Part shown: piece by piece, positions 36,322 to 64,000 of the stretch
How the letters are laid out: every line of letters begins with the position of its first letter
Position numbering within the stretch: the stretch's first letter is position 1
Assembly: GCF_002583555.1 (NCBI RefSeq)
Contig: NZ_BEGX01000004.1
Location: 62,001-126,000 of the forward strand
From: Pseudonocardia sp. N23
GTDB taxonomy: Bacteria; Actinomycetota; Actinomycetes; Mycobacteriales; Pseudonocardiaceae
DNA: 64,000 bases
Reading direction: 5' to 3'
The notes under the pieces: generated by a model
Seen by the model: only the letters and a program-made list of their open reading frames with translations
The model's database searches: none
Told to the model about the DNA's origin: nothing
Translations under genes and position numbers: made by a program

Positions 36322-36345
36322 GCCCGCGAATTGTATGCAGTCAGC
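36322..36345 (-). promoter_or_regulatory. Shared GCATACAATT site, promoter of the dehydrogenase
   Basis: On the minus strand TGACTGCATACAATTCGC contains a -10-like TACAAT about 70 bases before the dehydrogenase start. The same extended sequence occurs at the amidase (37.24 kb) and MFS (44.38 kb) promoters, so it is a candidate GntR-FCD operator overlapping the -10 box. Confidence 0.5.
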
Positions 36346-37045
36346 TCGCTTCGACGGAAGGCGCCGCCGTCGACCCGAAGATCTCGTCACGCCCCTCGAG
36401 CAGCCGCGACTTCGCGGAGTACACGTGGGCGAGCATGACCGACTCGGCCCACTCGGGGCTGCGCGCCCGGAACGCCGCGATGATCTCGCGATGGTGGCGG
36501 TTGCTGCGCTGCTGGTCCTCGAGGGTGTAGTCGTGCACCGTCCGCAGCATCAGCGGGCCGATGACGACGCTGCCGCGCACCGCCGCGAAGATCTCGCCGC
36601 CGGCGGCGCGGGCGATGGAGCCGTGGAACTCGCGGTTGAAGGCCGCGGTCAGGTCGATGAGCTCGGGATCACCGAGCGGGAGCGCGGCGGCACTGCGCTC
36701 GACGTCGTCGCACAGGCCGGCGAGCCGCTCGATCTCGGCATCGGACATGGTGAGCGCGGCGCGGCGGACGAAGAAGCCCTCGACGACGGCCCGCAGGTCG
36801 TAGATCGCGGCGATGTCGAGCGAGCGCCAGTCGACGACGCGGGCGCCCCGGTGCGGCAGGGCCTCGATGAGCCCCTCGGACTGGAGGCGGCGCAACGCCT
36901 CACGGACCGGGGTGCGGGACAGGCCGTAGCGCTCGGCCATGTTGGCCTCGCCCAGCCGGGACCCGCCTTCCAGCTCGCCGGACATGATGTCCGCCCGGAT
37001 CATGCGGTACGCCCGGTCGGCCGCCCGTTCGTTACTCGACGTCAC
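36341..37045 (-). CDS. GntR-family (FCD) transcriptional regulator
   Basis: The 234-residue protein has the GntR winged helix (about residues 8-70: AYRMIRADIMSGELEGGSRL, then RYGLSRTPVREALRRL) and an all-helical FCD ligand domain. The metal-binding residues of that domain are represented by FNREFHGSIAR and HREIIAAF. The GTG at 37045 is taken because upstream sequence runs into the promoter region. It is divergent from the amidase operon and next to the dehydrogenase; both promoters carry the shared GCATACA site, so it is the best candidate master regulator of the island. Confidence 0.88.
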   Translation of the reverse strand: MTSSNERAADRAYRMIRADIMSGELEGGSRLGEANMAERYGLSRTPVREALRRLQSEGLIEALPHRGARVVDWRSLDIAAIYDLRAVVEGFFVRRAALTMSDAEIERLAGLCDDVERSAAALPLGDPELIDLTAAFNREFHGSIARAAGGEIFAAVRGSVVIGPLMLRTVHDYTLEDQQRSNRHHREIIAAFRARSPEWAESVMLAHVYSAKSRLLEGRDEIFGSTAAPSVEAS

Positions 37046-37223
37046 CCGGCGAGACGGTACAGGCCCGGACGACCCACGCCACCCACTCGGGCTCCGGAAA
37101 CGCAAAAACAACCGAACTTTGTGCACAGTTCACGACGCACGCTCCATGCGACTGTTTCCGGTGCGTTACCGATCGCTGGCACTACTTGCTGCGGATTCGG
37201 GGCCAGGAACGGCCTTCCGGCCG

Positions 37224-37257
37224 TTGACGCCACAACCGCGAGTTGCATACAGTTTGC
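37224..37257 (+). promoter_or_regulatory. Amidase operon promoter with GntR-type operator
   Basis: TTGACG (37224-37229), an 18-base spacer and TACAGT (37248-37253) form a good sigma-70-like promoter about 50 bases before the amidase start. AGTTGCATACAGTTTG overlaps the -10 box and matches the sites at 36.33 and 44.38 kb. A repressor bound there would block the operon. The 37046-37304 gap is visibly AT-richer than the rest of the window. Confidence 0.6.
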
Positions 37258-37304
37258 TTCGGCCGCGCCGCCTCGGCGGCCCCCGCGACAAGAGGAGGTC
37301 GGGC

Positions 37305-38669
37305 GTGCAGATCCCCGATGACCGCGCACCGCTCGGCGGTCCGGAGGGCTGGGACACCGCACACGCACGGTACGAGGAGATCGACGATCGCGTGCGCGCC
37401 GTCATCACCTGGGTGGACTCGTCGCGTGCCGACGCCGTCGCCGCGGCCGAGCGCCGGGCCGCAGGCCGGTCCCTCGGCCCGCTCGACGGCGTGCTGGTGG
37501 CGCTGAAGGACAACATCGACGTCGCCGGGGTCCGCACCACCGCCGGTGCCTCGTTCCTGGCCGACAACGTCGCCACCGCGGACGCGACCGTCGTCCGGCG
37601 GCTACGAGCCGCGGGTGCGGTCGTCAACGCCAAGCTCAACATGGCCGAGCTGGCGTGGGGCGCGACGACCCAGAACATCACCTACGGCGCCTGCCGCAAC
37701 CCGTGGGACCTCGACCGCATCCCCGGCGGGTCCAGCGGCGGCTCCGGGGCAGCGCTCGCCGCCGGCTACTGCGACCTCGCGCTCGGCACCGACACCGGTG
37801 CCTCCGTGCGCATCCCCGCCGCGCTCAACGGTGTCGTCGGCCTGCGGCCCAGCGTCGGCAGCATCTCGATCGGTGGTGTGCTGCCCGCAGCGAAGACGCA
37901 GGACACCGTCGGCCCGATGGCCCGCCACGCCGTCGACGCCGCCCGGCTGACCGAGGCCCTCACCGGGTTCGACCCTGCCGACCCGTACTCCGTCGTGTCG
38001 ACGGGCGCCCCCGCGACCTCTGCGATCGGCAAGCCCCTCGACGGGCTCACCGTCGGCGTCGCCCGCTCCTTCTTCTTCGACGACCTCGACGACGGCGTCG
38101 GCGAGCGCATCGAGACGTTCCTCGGCTGGCTGTCCGACCAGGGCACCACGACCACGGACGTCCCCGACTTCGGGGCGACCGGCGCGCACGAGCACTGGAC
38201 CCGCATCGTCGGCAGCGAGGGTGCGTCGTTCCACCAGGAGCGCCTGCTCGCCCACCCCGACCACTTCTCACCCGACGTGTTCGCCCGCGTCTCCGCGGGC
38301 CTCGACGTCCCCGCCGTCGACCTCGTCCGCTCGCTGGCGTTCCGGGCCGAGTACCGCACCCGGCTCGCACAGGTGTTCGCCGGTCTCGACGTCATCGTCA
38401 CCCCCGTCGTCCCCGTCGACGTCCCGATGGCCGGCGGCCCCGACTCCCGCGCGCAGACGATGCAGCTGGGCCGGGTGACCTACCCGTGGGCTCTTCACGA
38501 CGGCCCGACGCTGAGCCTGCCGATCGGGTTCCACCCCCGCAGTGGCCTGCCGGTCGGGATCGCCGTCACCGCGCCGCGCTTCGGCGAGGCCGTCCTGTTC
38601 CAGATCGCGTGCGCGTACCAGGACGTCACCGACTGGCACACCGCCCGCGCCGCCGTCCCCGCCAGCTGA
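37305..38669 (+). CDS. Amidase (amidase-signature family)
   Basis: The 454-residue protein has the amidase signature with the complete Ser-cisSer-Lys triad: K68 in ALKDNIDV, S143 in GGSSGGSGAA and S167 in GTDTGASVRIPA. It hydrolyses an amide to acid plus ammonia. The GTG at 37305 has GAGGAGG upstream. It opens a five-gene operon (amidase, CoA-transferase, hydantoinase, Cys-hydrolase, dehydrogenase). The most plausible role is hydrolysis of a half-amide or carbamoyl compound from a ring-opened imide or hydantoin; GatA-type transamidation is excluded by lack of partners. Confidence 0.9.
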   Translation: MQIPDDRAPLGGPEGWDTAHARYEEIDDRVRAVITWVDSSRADAVAAAERRAAGRSLGPLDGVLVALKDNIDVAGVRTTAGASFLADNVATADATVVRRLRAAGAVVNAKLNMAELAWGATTQNITYGACRNPWDLDRIPGGSSGGSGAALAAGYCDLALGTDTGASVRIPAALNGVVGLRPSVGSISIGGVLPAAKTQDTVGPMARHAVDAARLTEALTGFDPADPYSVVSTGAPATSAIGKPLDGLTVGVARSFFFDDLDDGVGERIETFLGWLSDQGTTTTDVPDFGATGAHEHWTRIVGSEGASFHQERLLAHPDHFSPDVFARVSAGLDVPAVDLVRSLAFRAEYRTRLAQVFAGLDVIVTPVVPVDVPMAGGPDSRAQTMQLGRVTYPWALHDGPTLSLPIGFHPRSGLPVGIAVTAPRFGEAVLFQIACAYQDVTDWHTARAAVPAS

Positions 38670-38706
38670 AGCCCACGCCCGCCCTCGGGCAGACCGGAAG
38701 GTTGTC

Positions 38707-39948
38707 ATGACAGAGCACACCGTCGACGTCTCGGCGCTCTCGCCCGTCGAGAAGGGCCGCGGCGCGCTCGAGGGCCTGCGAGTCCTCGACCTGGCCACGA
38801 TGATGGCCGCTCCGTGGGCCGCGACGTACCTCGCCGACTACGGCGCCGATGTCGTGAAGGCGGAGCTGCCCGGCACCGGTGACCCGGTCCGCAAGTGGGG
38901 CACCCAGTTCGAGGGCGTCTCGCTGGCGTGGAAGACGCTGGCACGCAACAAGCGGCTCATCACGCTGGCGCTGAACAAGCCCGAGGGCCAGGAGATCGTG
39001 CGGCGGCTGGTCCCGGAGTTCGACATCGTCATCGAGAACTTCCGGCCCGGTGTCATGGAGCGCTGGGGGCTGGGTCCCGAGGTCCTCCAGGAGATCAACC
39101 CGAAGCTGATCATCCTGCGCACGTCGGGCTACGGCCAGACCGGCCCGTTCGCCGAGCGCCCCGGCTTCGGCACGCTGGCCGAGGGATTCTCCGGCCTGGC
39201 CTACATCACCGGTGCCGACGACCGCCCGCCGTCGATCGCCGGCTACCCGCTGGCCGACGGCGTCGCCGCGCTGACCGGCGCGATGGCCGTCCTCGCGGCC
39301 GTGTACCACCGCGACGTCAACGGCGGCAAGGGCCAGGTCATCGACAACGCGATCACCGAGGCGACCTACCGGCTCATCGACTACACGATGCTGGACTGGG
39401 AGAAGCGCGGCGTCATCCGCCAGCGCTCGGGCAACCGGCTCGCCGACCTCGCCCCGCGCAACACCTACCAGTGCTCGGACGGGCACTGGATCTCGATCTC
39501 CGGCGGCACCCAGGCCATCGTGGAGCGCATGTTCCACGTCATGGGTCGCCCGGAGCTCATCACCGACCCCCGGTTCCTCGACAACGAGACGCGGCTGCGC
39601 AACGTGGCCGACCTCGACGAGGCCATCGCCGACTGGTGCGCCAAGCACCCGCAGGACGAGGCGCTGCGCCTGTTCGAGGAGTCGCGTGTCGCCGCGGCGG
39701 CCGTTCACGACATCAGCCAGGTCGCCGAGCACCCGCATTTCAAGGCGCGCGAGCTGCTGCAGCGCATCGACGACCCACAGTTGGGCCCGACGTCGGTGAC
39801 GCACGTGCACCCGCGGCTGTCGGAGACCCCGGGCGGGGTCAGCCACCTCGGTGGCGAGATGGGGCAGGACAACGAGAGCTTCTACCTCGACGAGGTGGGG
39901 CTGTCGCAGGAGGAGTTCCAGAAGCTCAAGGACGTCGGGGCCATCTGA
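38707..39948 (+). CDS. Class III (CaiB/BaiF) CoA-transferase
   Basis: The 413-residue protein starts with LRVLDLATMMAAPWAATYLA and has VVKAELPGTGDPVRKWG, NKRLITLALNKPEGQ, NFRPGVMERWGLGPE and the AGYPLADGVAALTGAM segment typical of formyl- or succinyl-CoA:carboxylate transferases. GGAAGG precedes the ATG. It lies between the amidase and the hydantoinase, so it probably activates the acid that these hydrolases release. Confidence 0.9.
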   Translation: MTEHTVDVSALSPVEKGRGALEGLRVLDLATMMAAPWAATYLADYGADVVKAELPGTGDPVRKWGTQFEGVSLAWKTLARNKRLITLALNKPEGQEIVRRLVPEFDIVIENFRPGVMERWGLGPEVLQEINPKLIILRTSGYGQTGPFAERPGFGTLAEGFSGLAYITGADDRPPSIAGYPLADGVAALTGAMAVLAAVYHRDVNGGKGQVIDNAITEATYRLIDYTMLDWEKRGVIRQRSGNRLADLAPRNTYQCSDGHWISISGGTQAIVERMFHVMGRPELITDPRFLDNETRLRNVADLDEAIADWCAKHPQDEALRLFEESRVAAAAVHDISQVAEHPHFKARELLQRIDDPQLGPTSVTHVHPRLSETPGGVSHLGGEMGQDNESFYLDEVGLSQEEFQKLKDVGAI

Positions 39949-39980: not shown

Positions 39981-41387
39981 ATGTACGACCTCATCGTCAC
40001 CAACGGGCTGGTCGCCGACGACCGCACGGTGCAGCCCCTCGACATCGCCGTCAAGGACGAGAAGATCGTCGCCGTCGGCACCCACGGCCAGTTCTCCGAG
40101 ACCGGGGCGGCGACGGTCGTCGACGCTGCGGGCAAGTACGTGCTGCCGGGTGGCATCGACAGCCACGTGCACTACGACCTGCAGATCTCCGAGGCCATGA
40201 AGGCGCAGTCGTCCGAGGCGGGCTCGCGCGCGGGCCTGTGGGGCGGCACCACGACCTACATCGACTTCTCGATCTCGTGGGGCGAGGAGGACCTCGTCGA
40301 GTCGATCCAGTCGAAGATCGAGAAGTCGAACTCGCAGAACCTCTACAGCGACTACGCGCTGCACGCGATCATGACCGGCAACTGGCCGCAGTCCAACGCC
40401 GACCGCATCCGCGAGGCGATCTCGGGCGGGGTCACGTCGTTCAAGTTCTTCACGACGTTCGCGGGCTCCGAGGCCATCGGCGGCATGATGACCGACGACG
40501 GCCGCATCTACTCGGCGATGCTCGAGACCGAGAAGCACGGCGGCATCGTGATGGTGCACTGCGAGGACGACTGCATCATCGACTACAACGTCCGCAAGCT
40601 CTACAGCGAGGGTCGCGAGCACTTCTCCAACATCGGCGAGGCCCGCCCGCCCCTGGCCGAGGAGGCCGCGATCCGCCGGATGCTGCTGCTGTCACAGCGC
40701 ACCGGCTCGCCGCTCTACATCGTGCACGTCGCCGCCAAGGAGTCCGTCGAGGCGATCGGCGAGTTCCGCGACAAGGGCGCGCACGCGTTCGGCGAGGTCC
40801 TGCACCCCAACCTCGTGTTCGACCCCGAGCTGTACAAGAAGCCCAACGGCCAGCGTTACATGAACTACCCGCCCAACAAGTCGATCGAGCACCGCGACGC
40901 GCTCTGGGCGGCGTGCGAGAACGGCAGCCTCCACACGCTGGCAAGCGACGACTTCACCATCCCGTGGGACAACAAGATGACGGGGGACACCGTCGACAAC
41001 GTCACCGGCGGGACGAACTCGGTCGAGACCCGGCTGTCGGTGTTCTGGTCCGAGGGCGTGCGCAAGGGCCGGCTGTCCGTCCCCCGCTTCGTCGAGCTGA
41101 CCTCGGCCAACCCGGCGCGGCTCTTCGGCATCTACGGCACCAAGGGTGTGCTGCGCCCGGGCGCCGACGCCGACATCGTGATCCTGGACGACGGGTTCAC
41201 CCACACCTACAAGCAGGGCGAGAACCTGCACTCGGACTGCGACTACAGCAACTGGGACGGCTGGGACGTCAACGGCATGCCGGTCACGACGATCCTGCGC
41301 GGCAACGTGATGATCGACAAGGGCGCGTTCGTCGGCCCGCAGAACGTCGGCAGGTTCGTCCCGGCCACCACACCCGAGACCTTCTGA
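39981..41387 (+). CDS. Hydantoinase/dihydropyrimidinase-type cyclic amidohydrolase
   Basis: The 468-residue metal-dependent amidohydrolase has the binuclear-metal set: H62-x-H64 in DSHVHYDL, the carbamylated Lys K155 in SFKFFTT, His in VHCEDD and IVHVAAKES, and Asp in LASDDFTIP. Such enzymes open five- or six-membered cyclic imides, hydantoins or dihydropyrimidines. GGGAGCGAG precedes the ATG. It is encoded with an amidase and a carbamoyl-type Cys hydrolase, the natural next steps. Imide, hydantoin or dihydropyrimidine cannot be distinguished from the sequence. Confidence 0.9.
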   Translation: MYDLIVTNGLVADDRTVQPLDIAVKDEKIVAVGTHGQFSETGAATVVDAAGKYVLPGGIDSHVHYDLQISEAMKAQSSEAGSRAGLWGGTTTYIDFSISWGEEDLVESIQSKIEKSNSQNLYSDYALHAIMTGNWPQSNADRIREAISGGVTSFKFFTTFAGSEAIGGMMTDDGRIYSAMLETEKHGGIVMVHCEDDCIIDYNVRKLYSEGREHFSNIGEARPPLAEEAAIRRMLLLSQRTGSPLYIVHVAAKESVEAIGEFRDKGAHAFGEVLHPNLVFDPELYKKPNGQRYMNYPPNKSIEHRDALWAACENGSLHTLASDDFTIPWDNKMTGDTVDNVTGGTNSVETRLSVFWSEGVRKGRLSVPRFVELTSANPARLFGIYGTKGVLRPGADADIVILDDGFTHTYKQGENLHSDCDYSNWDGWDVNGMPVTTILRGNVMIDKGAFVGPQNVGRFVPATTPETF

Positions 41388-42064
41388 TGACGGTGACCGA
41401 GAGCGCGTCGGCAGCGATCGACGACGCGACACTCGACGACTACGCCTCCCGTGGGATGCGGCAGCGCACGGGCTTCGGTGACACGCCCTGCGTGCTGGTG
41501 ATCGACTTCCAGTACGGCATGACCGACCCCGGGTGCCCGCTCGGCTCGGCCAACCAGGACGCGCCGATCGAGGTCACCAAGGGGATCCTCGCGGCGGCCC
41601 GCGAGGCCGGCGTGCCCGTCATCTACACCCGGGTCGCCTATCGCGAGGACCTCGCCGACGGCGGGCTCTTCGTCGAGAAGTGCCCCGCGCTGGGCGCGCT
41701 CACCCTCGGCAGCCGCTGGGTGGAGATCGACGAGCGCGTCGCGATGCAGGACGGCGACTACCTGCTCACCAAGCGGCACAGCAGCTCCTTCATCGGCACC
41801 GAGCTGCAGCAGGTGCTGCAGCGCCGCGGGATCGACACGATCATCAACGTCGGCTGCTCGACGTCGGGCTGCGTCCGCCAGACCGCCGTCGACGCGCAGG
41901 CCTACGGGTTCCGCTCGGTCGTCGTCGCCGACGCCGTCGGTGACCGCAGCCCCGAGCAGCACCGGGCCAACCTCATCGACCTCGACGGAAAGTACGCCGA
42001 CGTCGTGACCAGCGCGGAGGCGATCGCCGCGATCGCGTCGGTCAGTGCGGGGGCGTACCGGTGA
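41387..42064 (+). CDS. Isochorismatase-type cysteine hydrolase (N-carbamoylsarcosine amidase-like)
   Basis: The 225-residue protein has the Asp-Lys-Cys triad of the family: D40 in VLVIDFQYG, K129 in LTKRHSSSFIGT and C162 in GCSTSGCVRQTAVDA. This sub-group includes N-carbamoylsarcosine amidase, ureidoacrylate and maleamate amidohydrolases. The ATG overlaps the hydantoinase stop (TGATG) and its stop overlaps the next GTG. It probably removes ammonia (or CO2 plus ammonia) from the hydantoinase product. A paralogue is at 63.1 kb. Confidence 0.88.
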   Translation: MTVTESASAAIDDATLDDYASRGMRQRTGFGDTPCVLVIDFQYGMTDPGCPLGSANQDAPIEVTKGILAAAREAGVPVIYTRVAYREDLADGGLFVEKCPALGALTLGSRWVEIDERVAMQDGDYLLTKRHSSSFIGTELQQVLQRRGIDTIINVGCSTSGCVRQTAVDAQAYGFRSVVVADAVGDRSPEQHRANLIDLDGKYADVVTSAEAIAAIASVSAGAYR

Positions 42065-44517: not shown

Positions 44518-44536
44518 GTCGATCGTATACATTCAC
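44518..44536 (+). promoter_or_regulatory. GTATACATT site upstream of the HMGL-like gene
   Basis: GATCGTATACATTCACG contains a TATACAT -10-like box about 50 bases before the ATG and resembles the GCATACAATT sites of neighbouring promoters, though less closely. No good -35 box is seen, which would fit an activated or repressed promoter. Confidence 0.45.
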
Positions 44537-44583: not shown

Positions 44584-45573
44584 ATGGCCGAGGAGCCCCA
44601 GGCCCGCATCGTCGAGGTCCTGCTGCGCGACGGGCTGCAGACGATGGTCTACGAGTCGGACTGGCACGTCCCGACGACCGAGGAGAAGCTCGAGCTCATC
44701 GAGATGCTCGCCGACGCGGGCATCCCCGAGCTCGAGGTCACCGGCTTCGTCCACCCGAAGGTCATCCCCATGCTCGCCGACGCGAGCGAGGTCGTGCAGC
44801 GGCTCCCCGACCGGCCCGGCACGGTGTTCCGTGCGCTGGTGCCGAACCTGCGCGGCGCCCAGCGCGCCGTCGCCGCGGGCTGCACCAAGCTGTCGTCGCT
44901 GATCGTCGCGAGCGAGACGTACAACAAGAAGAACTCGAACATGACGCTCGCGCAGAACGTCGAGCAGATCCGGCTGGTCACCGAGCTGGCGCAGGCCGAA
45001 AAGGTCGAGGTCAACGTCAGCATGGGCTGCTGCTTCCTGTGCCCCTACGAGGGCGAGCAGACCGAGGAGCACATCCTCGGCCTGATCGAGACGTTCGTGG
45101 GCTTCGGGATCACCGAGGTCAGCATCGCCGACAGTATCGGCATGGCGAACCCGCGGATGGTCGGCAAGCGGGTCAAGGCGATCACCTCGCGCTGGCCCGA
45201 GCTGACGCTGGGCATGCACATGCACGACCGGACCGGCATGGCGCTGGCCAACATCGTCGCCGCGTTCGACAACGGCGCCACCCTGTTCGAGACGTGCGCG
45301 GGCGGCTACGGCGGCGGCATCTCGATGCCGGTCTCGGTGCTGGGCATGGGCAACGTGCCGACCGAGGACGTCGTCAACATGTTCGACGAGATGGGCATCC
45401 GCACCGGGGTCGACCTGGACGCGGTGCGCAAGGCCGCCAACCGGACCGCCGAGATCATCGGCCTGCCCACCTACGGCCGGGTGTCGAAGTACGGCACCTA
45501 CCAGGAGTTCCACGAGCTGGCGCTGCAGCACATCGACGCCCCCGCCCGCGGCAACTCCGCGCTGCAGGGCTGA
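44584..45573 (+). CDS. HMG-CoA-lyase-like aldolase
   Basis: The 329-residue protein belongs to the DRE-TIM metallolyase family near HMG-CoA lyase. Marks are LLRDGLQTM (Arg-Asp pair), TGFVHPKVIPMLAD, the metal-binding MHMHDRTG, and FETCAGGYGGG, where the catalytic Cys loop should be. It would cleave a 3-hydroxy-3-methyl- or related acyl-CoA to acetyl-CoA or pyruvate plus a second fragment. GGAGAGGA precedes the ATG. It stands alone between a divergent MFS gene and a convergent aldo/keto reductase. The real substrate may be a relative of HMG-CoA formed in this island. Confidence 0.85.
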   Translation: MAEEPQARIVEVLLRDGLQTMVYESDWHVPTTEEKLELIEMLADAGIPELEVTGFVHPKVIPMLADASEVVQRLPDRPGTVFRALVPNLRGAQRAVAAGCTKLSSLIVASETYNKKNSNMTLAQNVEQIRLVTELAQAEKVEVNVSMGCCFLCPYEGEQTEEHILGLIETFVGFGITEVSIADSIGMANPRMVGKRVKAITSRWPELTLGMHMHDRTGMALANIVAAFDNGATLFETCAGGYGGGISMPVSVLGMGNVPTEDVVNMFDEMGIRTGVDLDAVRKAANRTAEIIGLPTYGRVSKYGTYQEFHELALQHIDAPARGNSALQG

Positions 45574-45581: not shown

Positions 45582-46595
45582 TCACTGCACCGCGTCACCG
45601 GTCCGGAACCGCGCGGTCAGGGCGTCGAGCTCGGCGAGCAACGACTCCTCGAGCTCGACGTCCGCGGCCGCCGCAGCGAGGTCGAGCTGGTCGGGCCGGG
45701 TCGCGCCGAGGATCACCGAGGTCACGCCCGGCCGTGACCGCAGCCACGCCGTGGCCAGCACCGGAATGGTGAGGCCGGCGTCGCCGGCCAGGGCACGGAT
45801 CGCCTCGACGACGTCGAACGCCTCGTCGTGCCAGTACCGGCCGCGGTAGAGCGCGCCCGCGCCCGAGTCGGCGAACCGGGTGCCGCCGGCGGTGCCGCCC
45901 TCGCGGCGGTGCTTGCCGGTCAGTATCCCGCCGGCGAGCGCGTTGTAGGCCAGCACCCCGAGCCCGTCCTCCCGGCACAGCGGGAACAGCTCGCGCTCGT
46001 GCTCACGGAACAGCAGGTTGTAGCGCGCCTGCACCGACACGAACGCGGCCCAGCCGTGCAGCGCGCTGCGCCCCAGAGCGCGGGCGACCTGGTAGGCGAG
46101 GAAGTTCGAGCACGCGACGTAGCGGACCTTGCCCGCGGTGACGAGGTCGTCGAGGGCGTGCAGGGTCTCCTCGATCGGCGTGACCGGGTCGGGGCGGTGC
46201 AGCTGGTAGAGGTCGATGCGGTCGGTCCGCAGCCGCCGCAGCGACGCCTCCGCCGCCTCGACGACGTGCTTGCGTGACAGGCCGCCGTCCCACGGCCGCG
46301 GGCCGGTCCGCCCGTGCAGCTTCGTGGCCAGCAGGAACCGGTCGCGGCGGCCGTCGTCGTCGAGCCAGCGCCCGACGATCTCCTCGGTGACACCGGCCCG
46401 GTCCCAGTCGCTGCCGATCGGGTACTTGTCGGCGGTGTCGAGGACGGCGATGCCGAGGTCGTCGGCGCGGTCGAGGATGGCGTGCGACTCCTTCTCGTCG
46501 CACTGCCCGCCGAACGTCGCGGTCCCCAGGGTGAAGCGGGTGACCGGGAGCCCGGTGCGGCCCAGCACGGCCCAGTCACGGTCGATGACGGTCAC
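45582..46595 (-). CDS. Aldo/keto reductase
   Basis: The 337-residue TIM-barrel protein has the catalytic set DTADKYPIGSDWDRAG (Asp and Tyr), TKLHG (Lys) and YQLHRPDP (His). It also has the phosphate-binding text at the C-terminus (GVTSVILGATRPDQL) for NADP(H). The GTG overlaps the stop of the MFS gene upstream (GTGA), so it is last in the ABC-MFS-AKR series. It may reduce an aldehyde such as glyoxylate or malonic semialdehyde; substrate not determinable. Confidence 0.88.
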   Translation of the reverse strand: MTVIDRDWAVLGRTGLPVTRFTLGTATFGGQCDEKESHAILDRADDLGIAVLDTADKYPIGSDWDRAGVTEEIVGRWLDDDGRRDRFLLATKLHGRTGPRPWDGGLSRKHVVEAAEASLRRLRTDRIDLYQLHRPDPVTPIEETLHALDDLVTAGKVRYVACSNFLAYQVARALGRSALHGWAAFVSVQARYNLLFREHERELFPLCREDGLGVLAYNALAGGILTGKHRREGGTAGGTRFADSGAGALYRGRYWHDEAFDVVEAIRALAGDAGLTIPVLATAWLRSRPGVTSVILGATRPDQLDLAAAAADVELEESLLAELDALTARFRTGDAVQ

Positions 46596-54620: not shown

Positions 54621-55887
54621 TCAGTCCGGACATTCCTCGGTGCGGAGCCGCCGGGCCCCGGGGAAGGAGAAGACCATCCCCGTGGGGACGTCCCCCGTGT
54701 TGACGATCGCGTGCGGCCGACCGGCCGGGACGTGCAGCGCGTCGCCCGCGGAGAACGCGACGTCGCCGAGGTCGGTGCGCAGCACTCCCGACCCGGCCAC
54801 CACCAGGCAGACCTCCTCGGTCGTGTGCCGGATCGAGGGTGTCGACTCCCCCGGTAGCACGTGCGAGAGCCCGAGCGTCGCGGTCGCGCCCGGCACCGTG
54901 TCGGCGTCGACGAGCATCCGCGCCCAGGAACCCTCACCCGCCGGTTCCGCCGCCACCACCGTCACCGGCCGGGCAACCGGGTCCGACGAGGCCGACGCGA
55001 GCCACCCCCGCGCGATGCGCTCGCGCGTCGTGAAGACGACCCCGTCGAATCCCGACGCGTACTCCACGAACCGCTCCAGCCCGGCGATGCGCGCGGGCCG
55101 GCCGATGATCCGGCAGTGCAGCCCCACCGACATCATCCGCGGCGCATCGGCGGACTCCCGGTAGAGGGTGTCGAAGGCGTCCTTCAGATAGGTGAAGAAC
55201 TGCTCCGACGTCGCGAGCGGGTCGGCCAGCCAGAACTGGATGTCGTTGGTGTCGGCGGTGTAGGGCACCACCAGGTGCGAGGTGCCGCCTACGTCGACCT
55301 CGTAGGGCACGTCGTCGGCGTAGGAGTCGGAGTCGTAGAGGAACCCGCCCTCCTCGACGACCAGCCGCCGCGTCCGCTCGCTGGGCCCGTACCGGCAGTA
55401 CCAGCCGACGGGCCTGCTGCCGGTGGTGCGCTCGAACGACTCCACGGCCATCCGGATGTGCGCACGCTCCTCCTCCTCGGACAGCGCCCACACCTCCTCC
55501 CAGCGCCAGCCGTGGCTGCACACCTCGTGCCCCGCCGCGACGACGGCCTCGGCGACCGCGGGGGCCATCTCGAACGCCTGCGCGCACGCGAAGAACGTCG
55601 CCGGGACCCCGTTGCGGCGCAACACGTCGAGGATCCGCCACACCCCGACCCGGGAGCCGTACTCGTACATCGACTCCATCGCGAGGTTCCGCGTGCCCGG
55701 GGGGGAACGGGTAGGCGCCCCACTCGGTCAGCGACTCCTGCGTCGCGTCACCGGCGGGCAGTGACCGTTCCGAGCCCTCCTCGTAGTTGACGACGAGTGA
55801 GATCGCGAGCCGGTCGTCGCCGAGCCAGCGCCGCGTCGGCGGGTTCGGGCCGTAGCCGACGACATCACGCCCGCCCGGGCCGGTCAT
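54621..55887 (-). pseudogene. PuuE-type allantoinase/polysaccharide deacetylase fused to cupin, frameshifted in a G7 run
   Basis: The front frame (ATG 55887: VVGYGPNPPTRRWLGDDRLA, LVVNYEEGSE, WGAYPFPPG) and the back frame (MESMYEYGSRVGVWRILDVL onward) are two parts of one gene. They join at a run of seven G (55699-55705, minus strand C); six would give PPGTRNLAMESMYEYGSR in one frame. The back part has NodB-like text (FFACAQAFE, EVCSHGWRWEE, YDSDSYADD) and a C-terminal cupin (about the last 95 residues, EEVCLVVAGSGVLRTDLG). PuuE enzymes open allantoin without the classical metal site; related ones act on other ring amides. The gene may be broken, may be slippage-regulated, or the run may be a base-count error. 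Confidence 0.75.
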
Positions 55888-56687
55888 CCGTTGTCCCCCA
55901 GCAGGTCCCGGAGTGCCGCCTCGACCTCGGCCGGGGTGTCGACCTGGGGCGAGTGCCCGGCGAGCGGGATCTCGACGGCCCGGCAGTCGGGGATGCCCGC
56001 GACCAGCGTGGCGACGTGCTCCTCGGTGCGGGCGGCGTCCTCGGCCCCGCGGATCACCAGCGTCGGAACGGAGATCTCCGGGAGCCTGTCGACGACGTCT
56101 CCCCCGAGCACCCCGCGCAGGACCGCGGACAGGAACGGGTAGTCGGCGGTCTCGACGGCCTCGGCGTAGAGCGCCATGTCGGGGGGCGGCGGGTCGCGGT
56201 ACACCAGCGACCGCACGACCGCGGCGGTCGAGGCCGGCGCGGCGGTGCCCCCGGCGTCGAGCCACTCCCCCAGCGTGGCCCGGAACGGGGCCTTCACCCC
56301 GGCGGCCGTCGCCCCCGTGCCGACGAGTACCAACGAGTCGAGCGGCGGGCGTCCCGCGATGGCGACGACCTGGGCGAGCAGCCCTCCGGTCGAGTTGCCC
56401 ATGAGCACGACGGGCCGGTCGGTGTACTCCTCGATCGCCGACGTGATCGCCGCGGCGAGGCCGTCGAAGGCGTCGTCGTCGGCCGGGATCGTGCCCGCGC
56501 CGGAGTACATGTCGACGAGCACCCAGTCCCGCTCCGGCATGAGCTCGACGACGGGCAGCCAGAACTGCCAGCAGCCGAACCACGGGTGCAACGCGACGAT
56601 CGGCGCCGCGCCGGAGCCGTCGCCGGTGTGGACGTGCAGGTCGAGCCCGGACGCGGAGCGGCGCGGCTCGGTCGCCGACGGGGTCAT
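55884..56687 (-). CDS. Alpha/beta-hydrolase
   Basis: The 267-residue protein has the alpha/beta-hydrolase pattern: oxyanion region LHPWFGCWQFW, nucleophile elbow GNSTGG (Ser near residue 97), acid in VIRGAEDAAR and His in LAGHSPQVD. It hydrolyses an ester, enol-lactone or thioester in its usual roles. The ATG overlaps the CitE-like stop upstream, and its stop overlaps the allantoinase-like start (ATGA). It belongs to one long operon from 63.7 to 52.4 kb. Confidence 0.85.
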   Translation of the reverse strand: MTPSATEPRRSASGLDLHVHTGDGSGAAPIVALHPWFGCWQFWLPVVELMPERDWVLVDMYSGAGTIPADDDAFDGLAAAITSAIEEYTDRPVVLMGNSTGGLLAQVVAIAGRPPLDSLVLVGTGATAAGVKAPFRATLGEWLDAGGTAAPASTAAVVRSLVYRDPPPPDMALYAEAVETADYPFLSAVLRGVLGGDVVDRLPEISVPTLVIRGAEDAARTEEHVATLVAGIPDCRAVEIPLAGHSPQVDTPAEVEAALRDLLGDNG

Positions 56688-57532
56688 CGGGCCACCAGCC
56701 CGAACTGCGCCGCCCTGGCCAGCGTGGCCTGGGCGCGCTGGGCGATCGGATAGTCGACGAGCTTGTCGTCGACGGTGATCGCGGCGATGCCGTCGCGCTC
56801 GGCCTCGGCGAAGGCCGCGACGATGCGCTGCGCCGTGTCGATCTCGACGGCGCTCGGCGAGAGCACCTCGTTGATGATCGGCACCTGCCCGGGATGGATC
56901 GCGAACTTGCCGGTGAAGCCCATGCCGTGGGCCTCCTCGGTCTGGCGGCGCATCGCCTCGGGGTCGCGGACGTCGGCGAACGCGGTGTCCAGCGGCTGGA
57001 CGCCGGCGGCGACGGCGGCCATCGCGACCTGGATGCGTGCCGAGGTCATCAGCGCGTGCGCCCGCTCGGGCACGACGCCCATGTCGAGGGCGAAGTCGTA
57101 GGCGCCGAAGGAGACCCGGCGGACCCGGTCGAGCGGGTGGGACAGCCTGCCCGCGGCGAGGACCCCGGCCGCGGTCTCCAGGATCAGCACCAGCTCGATA
57201 CCGCCGGCGAGGCCGCGGTCGACCTCGTCGACGACGTCGGCGTCCTCGCACTTGGGGACGATGACACCGCGCGCGCCGATGCGGGCGGCCGCGGCGAGGT
57301 CCTCCGTGTGCCACTCGGTGCCGACGGGGTTGACCCGCACGTACACCGACTGGCCCGCCGCGACGGCGAGGTCGGCGGCGGCCTGCAGGTTGTCGCGCGA
57401 CGCCGCCTTCTGGCTCACCCCGACGGAGTCCTCCAGGTCGAGGATCACGGCGTCGGCGCCACAGCGCGATGCCTTCTCGAACCGGTCGGGCCGGTTCGAC
57501 GGCACGAACAGCAGGGAGCGGGGGTCCGTCAT
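56684..57532 (-). CDS. CitE/HpcH-type CoA-ester lyase
   Basis: The 282-residue protein has the CitE-family marks [24 protein letters not shown] (metal ligands), [23 protein letters not shown] and [14 protein letters not shown]. It should cleave a malyl- or citramalyl-type CoA ester. It differs clearly from the lyase at 2.5 kb, being the sole lyase of this second operon. Both ends overlap neighbours by four bases (IlvD-like upstream, hydrolase downstream). Confidence 0.88.
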
Positions 57533-59211
57533 ACGTGGGCTCCGTTCGGAGAGGGTGACGTGATCGCGCCGTCGGCGGCCGAGCCGACCGACGCGGCGTA
57601 CTTCGCGAAGACACCGCGGGTGAACTCCGGCTCCCGTGCCGGCGGCGGCCGCCTGCCGTCGAGGTCCGCCTCGACGGCGATCGTGCGGGTGTCGGCGTCG
57701 AGGACGATCCGGTCGCCGGTGCGCAGCAGCCCGATCGGCCCACCGGCCGCGGCCTCGGGGGCGACGTGCCCCACCATCAGACCCCGGGTGGCGCCGCTGA
57801 ACCGGCCGTCGGTGACCAGTGCGACGGTCTCGCCCAGCCCGCGGCCGACGATCGCCGAGGTGACCTGCAGCATCTCGGGCATGCCCGGTCCACCGCGTGG
57901 CCCGACGTTGCGGATGACGACGGTGTCGCCCGCCCCGACCTCACCGCCGAGCACGGCGTCCAGCGCGGCGCGCTCGCCGTCGTAGACGCGTGCGGTGCCG
58001 GTGTGCGAGCGCGGGGTGTGCGCGGTGATCTTGACGACGGCACCGTCGGGCGCCAGGTTGCCGCGCAGCACGACGAGTCCGCCCTCGACGGCGAACGGCT
58101 CGGCGAGCGGTCCGACGACACGTTGCCCGGCGGTCTCGACGGCATCCGCGGCCTCCTCGGCGAGCGTCCGCCCGGTGACCGTCGGTGTCGAGCCGTCCAC
58201 GAGCCCGCCCTCCACCAGCCGGGACACCAGCAGCATCGTCCCGCCCGCCGCGTGCAGGTCGGCGGCGCTGTAGGTCCCGCCGGGCATGAGGTCGCACAGC
58301 AGCGGGGTGCGCCGGGAGATGCGGTCGATGTCGTCGAGGGTCAGTGGCACACCGACCTCGGCGGCGAGCGCGATCAGGTGCAGCACTGCGTTGGTCGACC
58401 CGCCCGAGGCCGCGACGGCCGCGACGGCGTTCTCGAACGCGGGCCGGGTGAGCAGCCTGCTGGGCCGCAGGTCCTTCGTCGCGGCGGTCTCGACGAGCGC
58501 CGCGGCCGCGGCCACCGCGGCCGCCTTGTCCGCGTCGACGGCAGGGATGCCGTTGACCCGCGCGGGCGAGAGGCCCAGCACCTCCATGACCATGGCCATC
58601 GTGTTGGCCGTGTACTGGCCGCCGCACGCGCCGGCGCCGGGGCAGGCCGCGGCCTCGATCTCGTCGAGGTCGTCGTCGGTGATCGTCCCGGCGGCGTGCG
58701 CGCCGATCGCCTCGAACACGTCGTGCACCGCGACGACGCGGCCACGGAACCGGCCGGTCAGGATCGTGCCGCCGTAGAGGAGCACCGACGGCCGGTCGAC
58801 GCGGGCCATGCCCATCGCCATCGCGGGCACCGTCTTGTCGCACGACGCGATGCCGACGATGCCGTCGAACATGTGCCCGCGCGCGACCAGCTCGACCGAG
58901 TCCGCGATCAGCTCGCGGCTCACCAGCGACGCCCGCATGCCGGGCGTGCCCATCGTGATGCCGTCGGAGATCGCGATGGTGTTGACCTCCATCGGCGTGC
59001 AGCCGATGGCGCGCAGGCCGTCCGACGCGTGCGCGGCGAGGTCGCGGTGGTTGAGGTTGCACGGCATCGTCCCGGTCCAGCTGTGGACGACCCCGACGAC
59101 GGGCTTGCGCAGGTCACCGGGGGTGAAGCCGATGTTGCGCAGGTAGGAGCGTGCCGCGGCGCGCTCCGGTCCCTCGTACAGCGCCCGGCTGGGACGCTCG
59201 TGGAACGGCAT
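57529..59211 (-). CDS. IlvD/Edd-family dehydratase
   Basis: The 560-residue protein has the Fe-S dehydratase pattern: [23 protein letters not shown] and [18 protein letters not shown] carry the three cluster Cys. The C-terminal half has the [20 protein letters not shown] segment with the substrate Ser/Gly loop. Family members dehydrate dihydroxy acids, sugar acids or 6-phosphogluconate. It lies in an ABC-lyase operon, not with ilv genes, so a catabolic hydroxy acid (aldonate-like or dihydroxy-dicarboxylate) is more likely than branched amino-acid synthesis. Confidence 0.9.
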
Positions 59212-59235
59212 GGTGTGGGTTCTCCGTGGTGGTGG

Positions 59236-60264
59236 CTAGAGCGATCCGGACTCGCGGACCTCCTTGCGCCTGCTGTAGCGCGAGGCGCAGACCGCGACGA
59301 CGAGCGCGCCGCCGTAGAAGAGGTCCGAGACGTAGGACTGGGCACCGAGCATCGTGAGGCCCGTGGTGCCCGCGACCAGGAAGTACACGGCGATGAAGGA
59401 GCCCCACGAGTTGAACTTGCCGGGCAGGATCGCGGTGGAGCCCAGGAACGCCGCGGCGAAGGTCGGCAGCAGGAACGCCTCGCCCGACACCGGGTCGGCC
59501 GCACCCGTCGTCCCGGCGTAGAGGATGCCGGCGATCGAGGCGAGCGTCGCCGACGCGACCAGCGCACCCCACCGGATCCGGGTGACCCGCAGGCCCGAGA
59601 GCCGCGACACCGCGCGTCCACGGCCGACGAACAGCAGCCGTCGACCGGCCGCGGTGTACTCCAGGAAGTACCAGAGGCAGGCGGTGATGATCAGGCCGTA
59701 CCAGAACGCCAGCGGGACGCCGAGGAAGCGGTTGACGATGACCCAGTCGGTCAGGCCGGTCGAGATGCCGCTGATCGTGGTCGAGTCACCCATCCAGAGC
59801 ACGACACCGGACAGGATCGTGCCGGTGCCGAGGGTGACGATGAACGGGTCGACGCCGAACAGCAGCACGAACCAGCCGTTGAGCAGGCCGATGACCACGC
59901 CCGCGACCAGGCACAGGACGATGACCAGCCAGATGTTCATGCCGAGCTGGGCGTTGAGGACGCCGATCATCATCTGCGACGTCATGAGCACACCCGCGAC
60001 GGACAGGTCGTAGTCGCCCGCGGTGAGCGGGATCAGCAACGCGCACGTGAGGACGACGAGCACCGCCTGCGAGCCGAGGATTCCCTGCAGCGTCGACGTC
60101 GTGAGGAACGTGTCGGGACGCAGCGAGCCGAACACCGCCACGACGACGACCAGCGCGATCACGATCGAGAACCGCTGCGCGAGCGACCGCGCGACCGCGA
60201 CGCCCGGGGAGCGTCCGGGCCCCGCGACGTCGGTCGCCGGCTCGGAGTTCTTGGTCCGGGTCAT
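59236..60264 (-). CDS. ABC importer permease (RbsC-type), second system
   Basis: The 342-residue protein has about nine helices and the RbsC text AGDYDLSVAGVLM, LLNGWFVLLFGVDPFIVTLG, VGRGRAVSRLSGLRV and STAILPGKFNSWGSF. It is alignable throughout with the permease at 47.8 kb, so both importers descend from one duplication. The start overlaps the ATPase stop. The gene follows the ATPase and binding protein in order. Confidence 0.9.
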   Translation of the reverse strand: MTRTKNSEPATDVAGPGRSPGVAVARSLAQRFSIVIALVVVVAVFGSLRPDTFLTTSTLQGILGSQAVLVVLTCALLIPLTAGDYDLSVAGVLMTSQMMIGVLNAQLGMNIWLVIVLCLVAGVVIGLLNGWFVLLFGVDPFIVTLGTGTILSGVVLWMGDSTTISGISTGLTDWVIVNRFLGVPLAFWYGLIITACLWYFLEYTAAGRRLLFVGRGRAVSRLSGLRVTRIRWGALVASATLASIAGILYAGTTGAADPVSGEAFLLPTFAAAFLGSTAILPGKFNSWGSFIAVYFLVAGTTGLTMLGAQSYVSDLFYGGALVVAVCASRYSRRKEVRESGSL

Positions 60265-61892: not shown

Positions 61893-63061
61893 CAGGACGC
61901 CTTGCCCCACAGCTTCATGTAGTTCTGGACGAAGGAGTCGCCGTAGCCCTTGCCCAGTTCCGGCGGGGTGCCGGCTTCGTTCACGTTGGCCTTGGTGAAC
62001 ACCCGCAGCTGGATGCCCTCGTCACCCGAGGCGATCGGGCCGGCTCCGGAGAGGATGCGCCCGATCTGGTCGATGACTGCGTACCCGACCTGCGACGGGT
62101 TCTCCCCGACGTCCATCTTCACGACGTCGGCGTCCTGCATCATCTTCAGGACGAACGGCGTGCCGTTGAACGTCGAGATGTGGACCTTGCCGGTCGCGCC
62201 CGCGAGCTGGATGCCGGGCACCACGAACTGGGACATGCTGTCGTAGAGCGGCATCACGTAGTTGATGGTCGGGTCGGACTGGATGGCCGACCGCGTGATG
62301 TTCGTGATCTGCGTCGACCAGTCGGGCACCGACACGTTCTGGAACGTGGTCCTGCAGTTGGGGCAGTACTTCTTGAACTCGTCGTTGACCGCGTCGATCG
62401 ACGCCGGGCTCCCGATGACCTCCTTCGACGTCAGCACCAGGACGTTGGCCGCGCAGTTGGTGTCCTTGACGATGAAGTCGACCGACAGCCGCGCGGCGAG
62501 GTCGTAGGGCTGCGCGACGCGGGCGGTGACCTCGGGACCCATCGGCTGGGTGAGGTCCTCGTTGAGCACGGTGATGATCGGGATGCCCGCCGCCTTCGCA
62601 GCCGCAGCCTGCGGCTGGAAGTAGGTCGGGCTGATGGTCCCGCCGGTCAGCGTGATCGCCGCGGGCTTCTGCGCGATCGCGGCGTTCATCCCCTGGATCC
62701 ACTGGGTGCGGTCACCCTGGTTCGGGTAGTCGACGACCTTCATCCCGACCTTGCCCGCGGCCTCGGTCATCGAGGTCGTCAACGCCTGGGTGAACGGGTT
62801 GGCGCTCGACTCCTGGATGTTGAAGATGGTCTTGCCCTCGGCCGCGCTCATGTCGACGGCCGGACCGGGATCGGTGTAGTCGGGGACGGCCGAGTACTTG
62901 TCGAGTGCGGCGTTCACCTGGGTCAGGTCGCAGCTCGCGCCGCCCCCACCCGCCGCGGCGCTCGACCCGGAGTCGCCCGACGAACAGGCGGCCGCCAGGC
63001 CGAGCAGCAGTACGGCGGACGCCGTCGTAGCCACCCTTTTCATCGTCGTGCTGGAGAGCAT
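61892..63061 (-). CDS. ABC importer substrate-binding lipoprotein, second system
   Basis: The 389-residue protein has a lipoprotein signal ending in the lipobox LAAAC near residue 27, a Ser/Gly linker, and a type I binding fold (GKTIFNIQESSANPF, AAKAAGIPIITVL, VGENPSQVGYAVID). Its Cys pair YCPNC matches a pair in the paralogue at 50.6 kb. The ATG at 63061 has AAGGAGG upstream. Two related binding proteins in one island suggest two related substrates. Confidence 0.88.
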   Translation of the reverse strand: MLSSTTMKRVATTASAVLLLGLAAACSSGDSGSSAAAGGGGASCDLTQVNAALDKYSAVPDYTDPGPAVDMSAAEGKTIFNIQESSANPFTQALTTSMTEAAGKVGMKVVDYPNQGDRTQWIQGMNAAIAQKPAAITLTGGTISPTYFQPQAAAAKAAGIPIITVLNEDLTQPMGPEVTARVAQPYDLAARLSVDFIVKDTNCAANVLVLTSKEVIGSPASIDAVNDEFKKYCPNCRTTFQNVSVPDWSTQITNITRSAIQSDPTINYVMPLYDSMSQFVVPGIQLAGATGKVHISTFNGTPFVLKMMQDADVVKMDVGENPSQVGYAVIDQIGRILSGAGPIASGDEGIQLRVFTKANVNEAGTPPELGKGYGDSFVQNYMKLWGKAS

Positions 63062-63097
63062 CTCTCCTCCTTGAGAGCGCATGGTCCGACGGCCGGT

Positions 63098-63742
63098 CTA
63101 CCGGCCGCCGTCGGCGATGGACGCCAGGTACTTCTCCACCTCGTCCTGTGGCACCACGTCGGCGTACTTCGAACCGATGTCGAAGAGGTTCGCGCGGTGC
63201 GGCTCCTCGGCCCGGTCGAAGACGCACTCCTCGGGGACCACGACACGGAACCCGTAGGACACCGCGTCGATCACGCTCGCCCGGATGCATCCGGACGTCG
63301 AACATCCCGTCACGACGACAGTGTCGATCCCGCGTTGCACCAGGTACGACGTGAGGTGCGTACCGAAGAACGCGGACGGGAACTTCTTGACCAGCACCAG
63401 CTCATCGGGCTGCCGGCCGAGCTCTGGGTGGATCTCGACTGCCGCGGGGTCGTCGGTGCGCAGCTCGCGCAGTGCCGGGACCTTCGCCGCGAACGACGCG
63501 CCGTCCTCACCGGGTGCGTAGGCGATCGTCGTGAAGACGATCGGCAGCCCGGCAGCGCGGGCGTGGCCGAGCAGCCCGGCGATGTGCGGCACCGCGGGCG
63601 CGTCGTCGGCGCCGACGCCGTACGCGCTGGACGTGAACGCCCGCGACACGTCGACGACGAGCACCGCAGGCCGCGATCCCGTCCCGGCCGTCGCGCCGAT
63701 GCCGCGCTCCGCGTAGAAATCCCCGACCGCCTCGAAGCTCAT
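63098..63742 (-). CDS. Isochorismatase-type cysteine hydrolase
   Basis: The 214-residue protein has the Asp-Lys-Cys triad: D31 in VLVVDVSRAF, K119 in VLVKKFPSAFFGT and C152 in GCSTSGCIRASVIDA. It is a paralogue of the enzyme at 41.4 kb, sharing the late YADVV ending. It should remove an amide or carbamoyl group. It precedes the binding-protein gene on the strand and follows a CoA-transferase, with 12 bases between. Confidence 0.88.
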   Translation of the reverse strand: MSFEAVGDFYAERGIGATAGTGSRPAVLVVDVSRAFTSSAYGVGADDAPAVPHIAGLLGHARAAGLPIVFTTIAYAPGEDGASFAAKVPALRELRTDDPAAVEIHPELGRQPDELVLVKKFPSAFFGTHLTSYLVQRGIDTVVVTGCSTSGCIRASVIDAVSYGFRVVVPEECVFDRAEEPHRANLFDIGSKYADVVPQDEVEKYLASIADGGR

Positions 63743-63754
63743 GTGCCCCGCCCC

Positions 63755-64000
63755 TCAGATGACGCCGTCGGCCTCGAGGGCCGCCAGCTGCTCGTCGGTC
63801 ATGCCCAGCTGGTCGCGGTAGACCTCGAGGTTGCTCGACCCCTTCGGGGCACCGGCGTGGCGGACCTTCCCCGGGGTGTCGGACAGGATCGGGACCACGT
63901 TCTGCATGAGCACGTCGCCGAGGCCCTCGTGCGGGACCCGCACGATCGTCTCGCGCGCCAGGTACTGCGGGTCCTTGACGATGTCGGCCGCGGTGTACGC
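63755..64000 (-). CDS. CaiB/BaiF CoA-transferase, C-terminal part (runs off right edge)
   Basis: The last 81 or so residues are present: AADIVKDPQYLARETIV, RVPHEGLGDVLMQNVVPIL, GKVRHAGAPKGSSNLEVYRD and LGMTDEQLAALEADGVI. This ending (substrate-loop text then P-x-LGxHN-like region and a terminal EELAALxxxGVI) is typical of the family. It begins the operon as visible; the rest of the gene and its promoter are outside the window. Confidence 0.85.
   Translation of the reverse strand, partial: AYTAADIVKDPQYLARETIVRVPHEGLGDVLMQNVVPILSDTPGKVRHAGAPKGSSNLEVYRDQLGMTDEQLAALEADGVI

Follow-up and report, generated by a model that had tools for sequence, protein, structure and literature searches.

A conserved gene island of Pseudonocardia sp. 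N23 with a possible role in the catabolism of substituted dicarboximides

A 64,000-nucleotide stretch of the 6.54-Mb genome of Pseudonocardia sp. N23 (positions 62,001 to 126,000 of contig NZ_BEGX01000004.1, our C4:62001-126000; hereafter the window) holds most of an island of 27 genes that has, in our estimate, an even chance of being devoted to the catabolism of a small cyclic amide, or of a few such compounds, with substituted dicarboximides the likeliest. Cyclic imides are reportedly degraded in Blastobacter A17p-4 by an imidase and then a half-amidase (the system of Ogawa and Soong), and Ogawa 1997 and Soong 1999 are said, by their titles, to treat the hydrolysis of cyclic imides by dihydropyrimidinase-like enzymes. 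The island likewise joins a dihydropyrimidinase-like ring opener (DHP) to a proposed half-amide hydrolase, but the latter has an isochorismatase fold (ISO), and the island appears to add CoA activation, carbon-carbon cleavage of the HMGL or CitE type, dedicated importers and regulators.

The bacterial nicotinate pathway ends with NicF, a maleamate amidohydrolase of the isochorismatase fold that liberates ammonia from a half-amide. ISO-A, the first of two such proteins in the island, shares this fold, and 3ot4/3uao, which we take to be NicF, is its 137-bit relative; unlike that pathway, the island has no pyridine-ring oxygenase among its 26 genes scanned against Pfam and/or NCBIfam (GntR3, the twenty-seventh, lay outside the scan). 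The N-methylhydantoin/creatinine route employs HyuAB and N-carbamoylsarcosine amidohydrolase, again a ring opener plus an isochorismatase-fold hydrolase. Two HyuAB-plus-ISO loci, L070 and L073, differ from the island in being without a CoA-transferase plus lyase (L070 has only a 91-bit CoA-transferase match). In the nicotinate pathway of Aspergillus nidulans, as given in the text available to us, the cyclic imidase HxnM and the amidase HxnN lead to a hydroxydicarboxylate (PMC9304392). The island would resemble this route in placing a putative PuuE-related imide opener before amide hydrolysis. However, HxnM is tied in that text to HpPgdA (3qbu), whereas PuuE-2 of the island is closer to PuuE allantoinase, and the HxnM/HxnN route as described there has no CoA step (PMC9304392).

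Two haloarchaeal clusters, on plasmid pNVE414 of Natrinema versiforme (L089) and in Natronorubrum thiooxidans (L141), resemble the island in carrying an ISO, a DHP, a CoA-transferase and an HMGL with a cysteine-less loop in one run. They differ in adding LeuC/LeuD and PrpB-like/PrpD genes and, in Natrinema, an importer of the branched-chain amino acid type, and no pathway is named in their annotation. In the literature searched, which left subscription journals mostly outside, no description of this module combination or of its recurrence across domains was found. The island is probably a variation on known imide catabolism.

A collinear island of 27 genes

Genes in the window and its right flank were called with our own codon-usage caller, so start codons are approximate. 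The island occupies about 31 kb (35178-66596 in window coordinates), from an IPMDH-like gene at its left edge to GntR3 at its right edge, 2.6 kb beyond the window; gene calls on the right flank place the remainder of CoAT-B, PuuE-2 and GntR3 there. An earlier note, made on the window alone, had proposed a unit from 36341 to 64000: one conserved unit is indeed present, but its span is wider, and the isopropylmalate-dehydrogenase-like enzyme which that note had counted in lies just left of the proposed start.

Features of the island (strand in brackets where given):
35178-36254 (-): IPMDH, isopropylmalate/tartrate-dehydrogenase-like oxidoreductase, left edge; PF00180 293.9 bits, under every NCBIfam cut-off among the matches listed; synteny
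36332-36339: candidate operator TGTATRCA between IPMDH and GntR1, exact in 4/4 island genomes
36341-37045 (-): GntR1, GntR/FCD regulator; PF00392, PF07729
37244-37251: candidate operator, divergent promoter region GntR1/amidase, exact in 4/4 island genomes
37305-38669 (+): AMID, amidase-signature enzyme; PF01425 334.7 bits, no NCBIfam cut-off reached among the matches listed
38707-39948 (+): CoAT-A, family III CoA-transferase; PF02515 392.1 bits, best NCBIfam succinate-glutarate CoA-transferase 223.3 (cut-off 750)
39981-41387 (+): DHP-A, dihydropyrimidinase/hydantoinase-like cyclic amidohydrolase; TIGR02033 350.9 (cut-off 393.25); HxH, K155, H193, H249 and D323 conserved
41387-42064 (+): ISO-A, isochorismatase-fold amidohydrolase, proposed half-amidase; PF00857 130.2 bits, Asp-Lys-Cys triad conserved; PDB 26st 190.4, 3ot4 137.1, 1nba 131.7 bits
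42061-43101 (+): MDR, zinc-type alcohol dehydrogenase/quinone-oxidoreductase-like; PF08240, PF00107
43181-44335 (-): MFS carrier 1; PF07690 114.3 bits
44378-44385 and 44524-44531: two candidate operators from the motif search, one mismatch each, between MFS1 and HMGL
44584-45573 (+): HMGL (g44), HMG-CoA-lyase-like, cysteine-less loop with three residues more than its human counterpart (loop alignment); NF004283 258.1 (cut-off 246)
45582-46595 (-): AKR, aldo/keto reductase; PF00248 235.5 bits
46592-47752 (-): MFS carrier 2; PF07690 122.9 bits
47805-48887 (-): PERM-1, ribose-type ABC permease; PF02653 116 bits
48884-50455 (-): ATP-1, ribose-type double ABC ATPase; PF00005
50562-51737 (-): SBP-1, ribose-type substrate-binding protein; PF13407 108.7 bits; start probably the ATG preceding a lipoprotein-like signal, frame open to 51782
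51729-51736: ambiguous operator match overlapping the SBP-1 start codon (motif search)
51873-51880: candidate operator, one mismatch, upstream of SBP-1 (motif search)
52424-53824 (-): DHP-B, second hydantoinase-like cyclic amidohydrolase; TIGR02033 382.7 (cut-off 393.25), metal ligands conserved
53853-54581 (-): GntR2, GntR/FCD regulator; PF07729, PF00392
54621-55679 (-): PuuE-1, PuuE-like domain plus C-terminal cupin; TIGR03212 293.5 (cut-off 424.6), PF07883; N-terminal ~66 residues in another frame just upstream
55884-56687 (-): alpha/beta hydrolase; PF12697 54.5 bits
56684-57532 (-): CitE, CitE/HpcH-type lyase; PF03328 136.8 bits; TIGR01588 166 (cut-off 443.4), RipC (NF038242) 165.8 (cut-off 375)
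57529-59211 (-): IlvD-like dehydratase; PF00920 384.3 bits; NF002068 721.7 (cut-off 644), TIGR00110 611.1 (cut-off 618.15)
59236-60264 (-): PERM-2, ribose-type ABC permease; PF02653 91.7 bits
60261-61892 (-): ATP-2, ribose-type double ABC ATPase; PF00005 107.7 bits
61892-63061 (-): SBP-2, ribose-type substrate-binding protein; PF13407 76.6 bits
63098-63742 (-): ISO-B, second isochorismatase-fold amidohydrolase; PF00857 114.4 bits
63755-64951 (-): CoAT-B, second family III CoA-transferase, 63755-64000 within the window; best NCBIfam score 214.7 (cut-off 750)
65058-65999: PuuE-2, second PuuE-like gene, beyond the window; TIGR03212 334.6 (cut-off 424.6), PDB 3cl6 295.1 bits
66024-66596: GntR3, regulator, right edge, beyond the window; named from 28% identity to GntR1; synteny

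Every family named in the earlier note is borne out by these calls and the family scans, with small corrections to count and position: two hydantoinase-type amidohydrolases (both dihydropyrimidinase-like), two isochorismatase-type hydrolases, one each of an amidase, an HMGL-like, a CitE-like and an IlvD-type enzyme, two ABC importers (ribose-type, three genes each) and two MFS carriers. Its 'several' CoA-transferases reduce to two, the second cut by the window end, and its PuuE-type enzyme is there, fused to a cupin and broken in frame, with a second PuuE-like gene beyond the window.

Counterparts of DHP-A, 93-95% identical, occur in 3 of the 61 other genomes of the genus (G453, G471 and G495), and in each all 27 genes keep the same order and strand at 76-96% protein identity. 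The genes are under purifying selection, dN/dS against the window being 0.06-0.33 in all 81 gene-by-genome comparisons (that of PuuE-1 taken from its downstream reading frame only). Such collinearity in three genomes, together with these dN/dS values, indicates more than chance clustering of families. At the right edge, r07 directly follows GntR3 in G471 and G453 and lies 17 kb further in G495; at the left edge, g32-g35 are present in G453 and absent between g31/g30 and IPMDH in G471 and G495. The PuuE-1 frame, broken in this assembly (54621-55883), is uninterrupted in 3/3 orthologues; either a sequencing error or true pseudogenization could account for the break.

The island falls into a mostly rightward cluster A and a leftward cluster B, distinct transcription blocks which, judging by their paralogous pairs, were built from related parts: CoAT-A/B are 44% identical, ISO-A/B 42%, DHP-A/B 31%, PuuE-1/2 56%, PERM-1/2 52%, ATP-1/2 53% and SBP-1/2 40%. 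The terminal lyases differ, with HMGL in cluster A and IlvD plus CitE in cluster B. Conserved intergenic blocks share TGTATRCA-like sites, which precede IPMDH, the amidase gene, HMGL/MFS1, SBP-1 and GntR3, the last-named site lying at 66782. The 13 intergenic stretches of the island (2253 bases, right edge included) match the motif at six places, one mismatch being allowed, where 0.37 would be expected, the largest count among 300 shuffles being two. The 19 intergenic stretches to the left hold two matches against 0.85 expected, and the whole window 16 against 9.1, a slight excess that 5 of 100 shuffles equalled. Because the motif itself was derived from these regions, the enrichment is optimistic, and the candidate operators do no more than suggest shared GntR control of the island. 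A search for FadR-type operators gave two matches only, both within genes.

Around the island, the window also holds a SAM riboswitch at 22088-22181 (-) (45.5 bits; gathering score 44.4) and, at 27994-34760 (-), a KdpD-like sensor kinase (488 bits against a KdpD cut-off of 1123) followed by KdpC-, KdpB- and KdpA-like genes assigned by eye. Right of the island edge, 67892-69876 (+) encodes an acylating acetaldehyde dehydrogenase and a 4-hydroxy-2-oxovalerate aldolase, both over cut-offs. At 76922-86917, genes of FAD monooxygenase, ligase and Amdase families precede HyuA/HyuB; the Amdase gene and HyuA matched models and the others were named by eye. About 60 kb right of the island, locus L217 (C4:174001-194000) carries HyuA, HyuB, an 814-aa double CoA-transferase and IlvD in one strand run.

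Enzyme signatures and recurrence outside the genus

The individual families in the island are ordinary, and most of its enzymes score under the curated NCBIfam cut-offs for known functions. Both DHP proteins fall below the TIGR02033 cut-off, yet H62, H64, K155, H193, H249 and D323 are invariant in DHP-A, DHP-B and the Natrinema DHP. The binuclear metal site of D-hydantoinase/dihydropyrimidinase consists of four His, one Lys and one Asp in the available text of PMC9863593, and the ligands were assigned to alignment columns by our own reading. PuuE-2 and PuuE-1 (downstream frame only) both score under the TIGR03212 cut-off, and the top PDB match of PuuE-2, 1z7a, is a conserved hypothetical protein. 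As far as the available text of PMC9304392 goes, PuuE relatives include a cyclic imidase, and 3qbu is a structure linked to such enzymes.

ISO-A and ISO-B exceed the PF00857 score of 27, and D31, K119 and C152 are invariant in the four isochorismatase-fold sequences aligned; Asp-Lys-Cys is the triad of amidohydrolases of this fold. The ISO tree leaves the placement of NicF unresolved and does not separate half-amidases from carbamoyl hydrolases. Neither CoA-transferase reaches a family III equivalog cut-off. HMGL satisfies NF004283, but the loop cysteine, catalytic Cys266 in the human enzyme, is missing from it and from 6 more of 29 sequences (those of L141 and L089, the two copies in L162 and the two named orthologues of g44). 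All seven come from DHP-plus-ISO loci and exceed the human loop by three residues. The cysteine is present in the other 22, including the HyuA-plus-ISO loci L052, L059 and L167; as an exception to the marker, the DHP-plus-ISO locus L129 also keeps it. The IlvD-like enzyme, one of five IlvD-family places in the genome, has C51, C124 and C196, presumably the Fe-S cysteines of IlvD, and passes NF002068 while missing TIGR00110. CitE lies under the cut-offs for both citrate lyase beta (TIGR01588) and the citramalyl-CoA lyase RipC.

Outside the genus, the most extensive counterpart is L162, from a metagenome bin of Actinomycetota: it matches the cluster A genes AKR, HMGL, MFS, GntR, amidase, CoAT, DHP-A, ISO-A and MDR at 45-74% identity and further holds DHP-B-like (52%) and IPMDH-like (40%) genes, without the ABC importers, IlvD and CitE of cluster B. 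In L089 and L141 the run reads FAD oxidoreductase, ISO, DHP, CoAT, HMGL, LeuC, LeuD, with a PrpB-like lyase and PrpD adjoining; the Natrinema CoAT is 51% identical to CoAT-B, the HMGL 40% to g44 and the ISO 37% to ISO-B, the DHP only 27-29%. HyuAB takes the place of DHP in L052, L059 and L167 (GntR, CoAT, HMGL, HyuA, HyuB, ISO) and likewise in Haloterrigena L039. Catellatospora L129 has ISO, CoAT, HMGL and one DHP, and Pusillimonas L164 has ISO, CoAT, HMGL and LeuC. Six actinobacterial loci join a CoAT-B relative (54-56%) to CitE and a full-length DHP-like gene. Plasmid loci picked up by IlvD (Haladaptatus L037, R. ruber L041) or by ISO (Arthrobacter keyseri L040) were set aside, the module not being shown in them.

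A census of ISO homologues, picked solely by similarity to ISO-A, gave 40 loci from 44 places in 36 of 150 family genomes, leaving out the two island genes as well as G037:C726 and G095 (four loci were shorter than 20 kb). Amdase-family genes occur in 17 of these loci, PrpB-like lyases in 15 and HMGL in 2 (union 34, none in 6), against 0, 0 and 16, respectively, in 45 control CoA-transferase loci of at least 20 kb (five having been removed). CoA-transferase matches of 200 bits or more were seen in three of the 40, and two of these three are the sole loci with HMGL (Fisher p 0.004). Among 80 related CoA-transferase loci, three of them loci of the island itself, CitE occurs in 29 and HMGL in 24 (union 50), DHP in 11 and ISO in 8. 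This distribution is consistent with a free dicarboxylate meeting one of two fates, direct cleavage by a PrpB-type lyase or CoA loading ahead of HMGL or CitE. The 17 Amdase-family loci presumably concern maleamate; a 'maleate isomerase' label for r20-like genes was dropped, as family scans support the Amdase family alone. Close CitE relatives reached at most 43% identity, in 4 other genomes of 296 in the class (best eight candidates per genome scored), and all those in 528 plasmid records fell below 60%, so that these searches gave no additional branch B beyond the three collinear genomes.

A second related locus of the N23 genome, L061 (C52:71600-91599), contains ISO, DHP, a PrpB-like lyase, an FAD oxidoreductase and PrpD, as well as a ribose-type permease/ATPase, SDRs, an aldehyde dehydrogenase and a member of the old-yellow-enzyme family; the best model for the last of these, N-ethylmaleimide reductase, scores 305, below its cut-off of 403. 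Other DHP genes also adjoin ribose-type importers at G453:C1:731001-751000, G453:C1:3214001-3234000, G471:C29 and G495:C42, three of which carry an IPMDH-like gene as well; this adjacency suggests that importers of the type carry cyclic amides.

Proposed pathway and competing readings

In the pathway we propose, the substrate would enter through the MFS carriers and the paralogous pair of ribose-type ABC importers; DHP-A and DHP-B, with the PuuE-like enzymes, would open the ring to a half-amide, from which ISO-A and ISO-B, perhaps also the amidase, would release the amide nitrogen as ammonia to leave a free dicarboxylic acid. The family III CoA-transferases would load CoA onto this acid, redox and (de)hydration steps would fall to MDR and the IPMDH-like, AKR and IlvD-like enzymes, and retro-aldol/Claisen cleavage by the HMGL-like (branch A) or CitE-like (branch B) lyase would yield central metabolites, with the GntR/FCD regulators probably controlling the island. 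The substrate, the order and directions of the steps, the regulator assignments and a physiology shared by branches A and B are what we infer. The earlier note had envisaged ring opening, deamidation, CoA activation and retro-aldol cleavage in succession. Independent loci do bring a carbon-carbon lyase and a CoA-transferase together with a ring opener and a hydrolase of the isochorismatase fold, in keeping with that succession, for a ring that may be an imide or, less probably, a hydantoin or ureide.

A hydantoin, dihydropyrimidine or ureide as substrate is possible but rather doubtful. DHP and PuuE would then open a urea-bearing ring, ISO-A and ISO-B would remove the carbamoyl group as CO2 and NH3 to leave an amino or hydroxy acid, and the CoA and lyase genes would take the remaining acid. 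The nearest solved relatives speak for this route and weigh against a dicarboximide: for ISO-A the best such structure (190.4 bits, with 3ot4/3uao behind it) bears the name N-carbamoylsarcosine amidohydrolase; PuuE-2 lies far nearer to PuuE allantoinase 3cl6 than to 3qbu (74 bits); for DHP-B it is D-hydantoinase. The ISO tree puts ISO-A in a weakly supported fork (83/82) with carbamoylsarcosine hydrolase 1nba, with which L070 and L073 group at 100/100. Yet 34 of the 40 ISO relatives sit with PrpB-like, Amdase-family or HMGL genes, and none of the PuuE and DHP proteins reaches the curated cut-off for allantoinase or dihydropyrimidinase. Family III CoA-transferases, like these lyases, work on carboxylic acids rather than on amino acids. 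Neighbours of the dicarboxylate type, and the finding of no aminotransferase for an amino acid product among the scanned island genes, lead us to favour an imide over a ureide. An ordinary allantoin operon is rejected, since neither PuuE nor DHP reaches its cut-off and the 26 scanned genes include no family for allantoate processing.

Clusters A and B might also be independent catabolic units, at least two in number and each with a substrate and inducer of its own, that adjoin by chance in one clade, which we hold to be a tenable reading, somewhat short of even. The two form distinct transcription blocks, each with its own paralogue of CoAT, ISO and DHP, the island has three GntR genes, and L162 has A but not the importers, IlvD and CitE of B. 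The neighbourhood comparison called for in the earlier note finds the whole island in 4 of the 62 genus genomes, its own included, but also DHP-B orthologues (78-81%) in G447 and G445 with only GntR2 adjoining among island genes, so the unit is separable. In G447 an ABC ATPase and permease pair, 30-33% identical, lies ~13 kb from the DHP-B orthologue, and G479, G463 and G465 have DHP-B relatives (50-54%) without other island genes. Against independence stand the identical gene order in all four genomes, the joining of DHP-B-like and IPMDH-like genes to cluster A in L162, and the TGTATRCA-like sites, their excess being optimistic as noted. A sugar-acid or aromatic-acid pathway with incidental amidohydrolases, in which the importers, IlvD, AKR and the IPMDH-like enzyme serve a hydroxy acid, is very unlikely. 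IlvD-type enzymes often act on sugar acids, and the SBP, PERM and ATP proteins best match sugar importers, although under every such cut-off among the matches listed; similar importers, however, adjoin DHP genes at L061 and the second loci of G453, G471 and G495, and with two DHP, two ISO, two PuuE and one amidase, C-N bond hydrolysis is the dominant theme.

Further points count against a dicarboximide unit. The collinear genomes all belong to one genus, and gene order shared between close relatives is a weak guide to function; with the best four candidates scored per genome, the remaining 395 of 396 phylum genomes gave no DHP-A relative at E<=1e-100; and the census loci share ancestry, so their p-values overstate independence and are indicative only.

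An unlikely but wider form of the dicarboximide reading is a route of carbon recovery, found across domains, from substituted dicarboximides such as alkylmaleimides and alkylsuccinimides. A ring opener and an isochorismatase-fold half-amidase would come first, after which the route would divide, with a PrpB-like lyase cleaving the free alkylmalate-type acid or a CoA-transferase passing it to a CoA-dependent lyase; in the DHP-type CoA branch that lyase would be a cysteine-less relative of HMG-CoA lyase, of new specificity, common to Pseudonocardia, another actinobacterium and haloarchaea. That such dicarboximides are remnants of tetrapyrrole oxidation is speculation. To our knowledge, growth on imide-type rings is known mostly through single enzymes. 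If the proposal is true, the island would provide a complete candidate gene set for such growth, from import, ring opening and deamidation to CoA activation, carbon-carbon cleavage and regulation, and the cysteine-less HMG-CoA-lyase subgroup would be marked out as a sharp target for assay.

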